Position numbers and translations under genes: made by a program. From NCBI GenBank assembly GCA_018303625.1, contig JAGVXV010000001.1, forward strand, positions 1-56,266: a DNA stretch of 56,266 nt. The letters are read 5' to 3'. Positions 10,451 through 12,068 of the stretch are shown here, in pieces. The notes beneath the pieces were generated by a model. It made no database searches and was not told the origin of the DNA. It was given only the letters and a program-made list of their open reading frames with translations. Positions within the stretch are counted from its first letter, which is position 1, and each line of letters starts with the position of its first letter. This stretch comes from Candidatus Woesearchaeota archaeon. GTDB lineage: Archaea; Nanobdellota; Nanobdellia; Woesearchaeales; GW2011-AR4.

Positions 10451-10560
10451 AAGAAAAGAATTTTCATTGCAATAATAAATCTTTGCAAAATAATGTAACC
10501 ACTTTTTAATGATTAAATAATCGAAAGATTTATAAATGATTATATTTTTCTCGTTACACT

Positions 10561-11307
10561 ATGCCACAATATAGATTAGGCGAACCATATGCACGTGCTC
10601 TTAATCAGGTAGTTGCTGATGGAGATTTCAGAAGCCCTGAAGCCGTATTACGATATCTAGTTGAAACTCATGCTACTGGCTTAATCCAAAGGCAAGCTGT
10701 CATTATTGATCCACATGCTGCTGATAATAGAGCGAGAAGAACTCAAAGCCAGTGGGTTGGCTTCTTTAATGAGCAGGGAAAAGCAATGATTTCCGCTCCA
10801 AATATATACCAAGCTGGAAAGCATGCTTCTGATGAGGTTCTTGCCAGCTTAAGAAGGGATTTTGGTGAATCCTTACTTGTTTCAAGTTCAAGAATAAAGT
10901 ATGCTCAAGATGATTTGAGCGGTAGAATAACACATAATTATGAAAGCAGTGTTTTTAAGCCTTCACAGAGAGATGTTAAAGTCATTCCTGTTTATGATGA
11001 AACGCTATTAGCACAAGCTTTGCAAAGCGATGAAAGTATTGGATATCTTCATGCTTTATTTGATACTACTGATGAGCCTAAATGCATTGCCGGAACTCTT
11101 GAAAACCTTTCAAAGAGAAATGCTGATAGAATTGCTTTATGGACACCAAGCCAATTTTCAAGACAATATTATAATGAGGGGGCTGTCAGGTTCGACGTCG
11201 ATGGTGGTGGTGGGTTCCGCGTCGTTGGCGGTGACAGGGTTGTTGACGGCGTTGGGCGTTCCCGTGGGGTGAATGTAAAGTCGGCGAAGCCGGACGCGCA
11301 AAAGTAG
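10561..11307 (+). CDS. Candidate diversity-generating retroelement target protein with C-terminal variable region
   Basis: C-terminus RIALWTPSQFSRQYYNEGAVRFDVDGGGGFRVVGGDRVVDGVGRSRGV resembles C-type-lectin-fold DGR variable domains; the coding DNA at 11182-11271 has only 6 A in 90 nt by direct count. Confidence 0.6.
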   Translation: MPQYRLGEPYARALNQVVADGDFRSPEAVLRYLVETHATGLIQRQAVIIDPHAADNRARRTQSQWVGFFNEQGKAMISAPNIYQAGKHASDEVLASLRRDFGESLLVSSSRIKYAQDDLSGRITHNYESSVFKPSQRDVKVIPVYDETLLAQALQSDESIGYLHALFDTTDEPKCIAGTLENLSKRNADRIALWTPSQFSRQYYNEGAVRFDVDGGGGFRVVGGDRVVDGVGRSRGVNVKSAKPDAQK

Positions 11308-11347
11308 GCATTAAGCTTTATAAATACTGATTATTTCTTTCTTTTGT

Positions 11348-11364
11348 CTTGGTTCAGAACCAAG
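11348..11364. other. Short inverted repeat downstream of candidate DGR variable region
   Basis: CTTGGTTC-A-GAACCAAG, 41 bp past the target stop codon. Confidence 0.65.
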
Positions 11365-11462
11365 GCCACATGCCAGTTTATCATGGCTGTAAGGCTATAA
11401 AATGCAGCTGCAACACTTTAATTTTTTAAAGAATGAAGCGGCAGTGCATATAAGGTAAATAA

Positions 11463-11630
11463 AAGAAAGTTTGGAAGAAAATTTAATGAGAAATTAAGGC
11501 AATTTGGGCAAAAAGAAATAGGTTATGAAGATTTTATACGCAGTTTGCAAGGATGGCTTGGATATGCAATGTGGGCTAACACCTATGAATTAAGAAAAAA
11601 TATGCTCAACAAAATTTATTTTTTCTGCAG
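11463..11630 (+). pseudogene. C-terminal relic of a DGR-type reverse transcriptase
   Basis: Translates as NKRKFGRKFNEKLRQFGQKEIGYEDFIRSLQGWLGYAMWANTYELRKNMLNKIYF, matching the (S)xQxWLGxAxxAxTYxLRK C-terminus of DGR/retron-like RTs; no palm domain in the window. Confidence 0.6.
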
Positions 11631-12068
11631 CTTGTCCAGCTCCTCCTCGAACCTTTCTATGTCTTCAAATTCACGGTAAACAGAAGCAAACCTTATGTAA
11701 GCCACTTTATCCAGTGATTTCAGCTTCCTCATGACAATTTCGCCAATCTTTTTGCTTGGAACTTCGCTTTCGCCCCTTTCCCTGAGGTCAGCTTCTATCT
11801 CCTCAACAACTTTTTCAATCTTCTCCATGCTTACTGGCCTTTTTTCGCAGGCCTTGACCAAGCCTGTAAGCAGCTTGTGCCTGTCAAACCTCTCGCGCCT
11901 GCCGTCTTTCTTCACAATTACAATTTCCAGTTCCTCGACTTTTTCGTAGGTTGTGAAGCGCTTTCCGCATTTGAGGCATTCCCTTCTTCTCCTTGTTACT
12001 GATAAGCTCTCTGTTTCCCTTTTGTCAACTACCTTTGTCTCCTCGTTGCTGCAGTAAGGGCATTTCAT
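11616..12068 (-). CDS. nrdR: Transcriptional repressor NrdR (Zn ribbon + ATP cone)
   Basis: MKCPYCSNEETKVVDKRETESLSVTRRRRECLKCGKRFTTYE. Confidence 0.95.
   Translation of the reverse strand: MKCPYCSNEETKVVDKRETESLSVTRRRRECLKCGKRFTTYEKVEELEIVIVKKDGRRERFDRHKLLTGLVKACEKRPVSMEKIEKVVEEIEADLRERGESEVPSKKIGEIVMRKLKSLDKVAYIRFASVYREFEDIERFEEELDKLQKK

Follow-up and report, generated by a model that had tools for sequence, protein, structure and literature searches.

A decayed diversity-generating retroelement with an intact target gene and a residual reverse transcriptase C-terminus in a woesearchaeal genome

The window analysed here is the whole of a 56,266-nucleotide stretch of Candidatus Woesearchaeota DNA (contig JAGVXV010000001.1, positions 1 to 56,266), and the genome to which it belongs is a MAG of 1.34 Mb in 58 contigs that is 95% complete. 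Among its genes lies a decayed cassette of a diversity-generating retroelement (DGR), consisting of a target gene with its variable region (VR), cis-elements, a spacer and the relic of a reverse transcriptase (RT) (Table 1). The flanking nrdR and kinase genes are on the opposite strand. In most members of the family these two genes form a row with a dCMP deaminase gene, in many cases directly adjoining or overlapping, and the order nrdR-kinase-deaminase is kept in many family f1 genomes. The nrdR-kinase junction is without a cassette in most family members, and at two loci (L202 and L217) the two genes abut, leaving an empty site. Because the cassette sits exactly between nrdR and kinase and on the other strand, its position suggests that it was put into the junction as one unit. 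The same gap holds unrelated open reading frames in other relatives (L203:129-1436, L205:2045-2563 and L212:1093-1497), and the junction may therefore be an insertion hot spot.

Table 1. Features of the cassette in the window and positioned simple-sequence tracts in sibling RT genes
Feature	Position	Strand	Remark
Whole decayed cassette	10451..11615	+	Exactly between kinase gene start and nrdR stop
Putative archaeal promoter CGAAAGATTTATAAATGA	10522..10539	+	Inferred; similar sequence upstream of sibling targets
DGR target (variable) protein, 248 aa, frame intact	10561..11307	+	
Variable region (VR)	11179..11271	+	From mismatch pattern against the G086 TR
IMH-type VR 3′ end GGGCGTTCCCGTGGGGTG, contains TGGGGT	11254..11271	+	
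GC-rich hairpin GTCGGCGAAGCCGGAC, GAA loop, in target gene (DGR hairpin/cruciform)	11280..11295	+	Also in siblings
Second inverted repeat CTTGGTTCAGAACCAAG, 17 bp	11348..11364	+	Noted in the preliminary description
Non-coding spacer, homologous to the G086 hairpin-to-TR spacer	11365..11461	+	
Deletion junction, microhomology AAAT (up to TAAAT, 4-5 bp)	11457..11460	+	
Relic of DGR RT C-terminus, residues 295-349 of sibling RT	11452..11616	+	Abuts nrdR stop
RT tract	L012:9045-9056		
RT tract	L041:2061-2072		
RT tract	L050:2433-2441		
RT tract	L051:2165-2174		
RT tract	L052:2417-2425		
RT tract	L056:2317-2343		

The open reading frame named in the preliminary description as a DGR target is present, and the C-terminus quoted there was found, followed by NVKSAKPDAQK. 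The protein is matched by nothing in Pfam, NCBIfam or a PDB sequence search. An earlier AlphaFold model built from five sequences was poor; the present one has a pLDDT of 80.3, and Foldseek finds no significant PDB match for it. Of the proposal that the protein ends in a C-type-lectin variable domain, the C-terminal DGR VR stands, and the fold is putative; the lectin label comes from the position of the VR and from the literature (PMC5006420, PMC8144416). The target resembles AvpA in being archaeal and in carrying its VR near the C-terminus, and differs from it in that neither sequence nor fold search matches it to a solved C-type lectin (PMC5006420). Some woesearchaeal relatives among AvpA and AvpA-like variable proteins have been reported without a DGR (PMC5006420).

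The DGR origin of the locus is established by comparison with a sibling cassette. A search of sibling genomes for such a cassette had been proposed, and G086 has all of the parts, in the order target, VR, hairpin, spacer, template repeat (TR) and RT; its target is 47% identical to that in the window. Differences between VR and TR that are specific to adenines are the defining signature of DGRs. The window VR and the G086 TR share GGGGCTGTCAGGTTCGAC at the 5′ end and differ at 28 of 91 positions, 20 of which are TR adenines; with 25 TR adenines in the alignment, the hypergeometric probability of this bias is 1.4e-9. Within G086 itself, 17 of the 20 differences between VR and TR fall at template adenines. 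On sequence grounds, the open reading frame is confirmed as a former DGR target.

The cis-elements agree with this assignment. In nanoarchaeal DGRs, TGGGGT lies in the IMH, TGGAAT in the IMH*, and hairpins with GRA loops in the target gene (PMC4372165). The window likewise has TGGGGT in its VR and a hairpin with a GAA loop after it, and the sibling TR has TGGAAT at the place of TGGGGT; the locus is in these respects like the Nanoarchaeota (DUSEL4) DGRs (Paul et al. 2015, PMC4372165) and unlike them in that the TR and the RT core have been deleted. The position of the GC-rich hairpin directly 3′ of the VR also recalls the target recognition element of the BPP-1 DGR, whose stem of 7-10 bp and four-nucleotide GRNA loop contrast with a shorter stem and a three-nucleotide loop in the window (PMC3240598). 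Sibling hairpins show compensatory changes in their stems, e.g. GTCCGCGAAGCGGAC in G086, and among 18 VR regions of the order, 10 have a G..A loop in their best downstream hairpin, a loop seen in 1.6% of shuffles. It is this hairpin inside the reading frame that is the canonical DGR hairpin, not the inverted repeat reported earlier. That repeat is nonetheless real: it begins 41 bp past the target stop, folds better than shuffled sequences (z=-2.64) and has a counterpart, CTTGG...CCAAGGCCACA, at the equivalent place in G086 and G153. No Rfam family was matched.

Downstream of the inverted repeat, 90 bp align with the G086 spacer with a local score of 139.5, the best of 500 shuffles reaching 50. 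The spacer homology stops at TAAAT (ending at 11461), and homology to the RT starts with AAT AAA AGA at codon ~297, AAAT being common to both. Compared with G086 (L012 coordinates), ~1.0 kb is missing, comprising the TR and RT codons 1 to ~296, which include the fingers and palm. The open frame that follows encodes NEKLRQFGQKEIGYEDFIRSLQGWLGYAMWANTYELRKNML and is a residual DGR-clade RT in the expected place and on the expected strand. The earlier suspicion of an RT C-terminus is borne out: the frame is real, matches the C-terminal part of the reverse transcriptase profile PHROG_1423 (E=9.6e-7) and shares 59% identity (E=1.9e-16) with residues 295-350 of an archaeal DGR RT that is intact and comes from a genome of the same family; there was no match in Pfam or NCBIfam. 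The stump is 53 aa long, and 7 of the 8 residues conserved at the C-terminus are present in it, which suggests that the loss was recent, or else that the stump is still constrained. Also as first described, the gap holds neither a TR nor an RT core, and these are absent from the rest of the assembly as well: no other RT or RVT_1 domain, and no second IMH-like or TR-like site besides the VR, was found in its 1.34 Mb, nor was any A-specific repeat pair found around the locus. A target match on contig C23 of the same genome was rejected as spurious, since it overlaps a coiled-coil coding sequence. Scans of viral contigs found neither the target family nor the RT relic.

Loss of this kind recurs in relatives. 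Of 353 genomes of the order, 95 have DGR RTs and 19 have the target family, some of these with a nearby RT and some without. In at least three other genomes a target is likewise followed by the C-terminal stump of an RT, the TR being absent, and the breakpoints differ: in G153 the break falls directly after the second inverted repeat and the RT resumes at about residue 281; contig 60 of G022 has a different target and an RT from residue 278; and in G338 the RT begins at residue 269, ~20 nt past the target stop. C-terminal RT pieces in G308, G336, G135 and G174 were left out of this count. G232 shows an in-frame internal deletion of the RT (residues 150-287) with the TR kept. Two further C-terminal DGR-RT pieces without an RT core (L071:2968-3597 and L091:3178-3825) are fused to an extension that by eye resembles a helix-turn-helix.

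We conclude, with a probability of about 0.87, that the locus is a decayed DGR that lost its TR and the catalytic portion of its RT to a single internal deletion of ~1 kb, probably at a short stretch of microhomology. The RT match, the A-specific divergence of the VR, the archaeal cis-elements and the existence of a sibling cassette with all parts together argue for this reading. Before the deletion, to judge from the sibling cassette and from the concentration of VR differences at adenines, an adenine-error-prone RT would have copied TR RNA, and the cDNA would have replaced the VR. The deletion would have spared the promoter and the target gene, whose VR is as last diversified, along with the homing motif, the two hairpins, the spacer and the RT stump. 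As neither RT nor TR was found in the genome, rewriting of the VR would have ended, and the target would be fixed in one variant, which the cell may still express to bind a ligand. With the target frame still open and a promoter-like sequence in front of it, a frozen variant is functionally the simplest reading; expression is putative, and the protein is probably a binder that no longer changes. As a counterpoint, a genome that is 95% complete in 58 contigs could be missing a remote RT or TR.

The preliminary description had left it undecided whether the cassette was decayed or partly assembled. An artefact of assembly or population structure, in which the dominant strain is intact and the contig joins over a collapsed or rare deletion variant, deserves attention in a MAG, because the VR/TR repeats of DGRs can disturb assembly. 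A join of VR and TR is in fact seen in the sibling G024, where a single frame of 604 aa (L015:175-1989) covers the target, TR-like sequence and a complete RT, as would result from recombination between VR and TR or from their collapse in assembly. The junction in the window, however, lies outside both VR and TR, shares only 4-5 bp, and is preceded by bases, from the hairpin up to the relic, that correspond by homology to the spacer normally found between hairpin and TR. Collapse of the repeats is disfavoured, as it would join VR to TR as in G024 and cannot yield this junction. With three other assemblies showing such loss at different endpoints, we regard an artefact as quite improbable, though a rare chimaera or an intact sub-population may exist, and of the two original options it is decay that stands.

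An entirely different scenario is a remote target, of the sort known from other DGRs (PMC4891356), whose TR and RT lie elsewhere in the cell and still diversify it in trans. The window does have an undamaged IMH and hairpin, both of which homing requires, but the search of the 95%-complete assembly described above makes trans diversification very unlikely. There is also the question of whether the stump is a retained mini-protein or DNA element rather than debris. The pieces in the window, G153, G022, G338, G308, G336 and G135 all begin within RT residues 266-295, and nearly all conserved columns are kept in most C-terminal RT pieces. Recent deletions account for this conservation equally well, however, and the motif is lost in G174; the stump in the window has no demonstrated start codon or ribosome site, and its frame reads on into antisense nrdR. 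Retention for function is thus unlikely, and we take the stump to be a remnant of the decayed DGR.

DGR relics are already known in bacteria, and the novelty of the locus is in this sense modest. Cyanobacteria have variable proteins without an RT alongside degraded DGRs, and it has been suggested that the diversifying parts are removed after selection (PMC7517822); presumed DGR remnants are also described in Treponema denticola (PMC4891356). The window resembles these cases in that the target is kept and the RT and TR are lost. It differs in being archaeal, in having a readable RT stump and junction, and in the recurrence of the loss in relatives. The value of the locus lies in this junction and the parallel cases: it is a readable fossil, with boundaries, an insertion site and a sibling cassette in which no part is missing, of an archaeal DGR that was retired while its product gene stayed open. 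The recurrence allows one to ask whether loss of the mutator after a good binder has been found is selected.

A second observation on the sibling RT genes may be more interesting than the decayed cassette itself. The RT of G086 is interrupted at a run of 12 G, so that this cassette, complete in its parts, may be off in the assembled form. Of 115-137 sibling DGR RT genes, 16 contain poly-G, CT or AG tracts (the set comprises 137 unique loci, 115 of which span the linker before GMPLGNLTSQFF). G7-G27 or (CT)9-11 tracts occur in this linker, at RT residues 187-198, in 13 loci; two loci have G9 at residue ~314 and one has (AG)10 at ~140. In addition to the tracts listed in Table 1, they are found at L053 and L055, as (CT)n, and at L054, L065, L134, L141, L195, L087, L163 and L190. 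Among loci with sequence on both sides of the tract, the frame is out in 10 of 15 and open in 5 of 15, i.e. ~2:1. G/C runs of at least 9 amount to 91 per Mb in RT genes against 21 in flanking DNA, about fourfold denser, and one of the six flanking runs (L065) in fact belongs to the RT linker. On the RT tree, tract-bearing genes require 9 changes compared with a shuffled mean of 13.3; the tracts are therefore clustered but have been gained or lost several times.

These properties suggest phase-variable switching of DGR mutagenesis, with the caveat that poly-G tracts are subject to sequencing or assembly error, less so the CT and AG repeats. Judged by title and abstract, the papers returned by a full-text literature search included none describing phase-variable or homopolymer tracts in DGRs. 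If the tracts are confirmed, archaea can turn targeted hypermutation on and off. A tentative extension, which we consider possible but doubtful, is that DGRs of this order are shut off both reversibly, through slippage of RT tracts, and irreversibly, when repeated excision of the TR and RT core locks in a chosen variant; the locus in the window would then be an end state of the irreversible route.

Finally, we note two further settings of the target family. The target search of related genomes that returned G086, G153, G004 and G024 also found a cluster in G070 (L016:4780-13500), in which several target-family proteins are accompanied by genes for a MoxR-like AAA ATPase and vWA-like proteins, with no RT; the cluster resembles the MoxR-vWA systems of PMC7159879, the gene names having been assigned by eye. 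Another family member (L098:782-1699) lies on a contig binned as Zambryskibacteria of the CPR (PCXM01000018.1), reflecting either misbinning or transfer.
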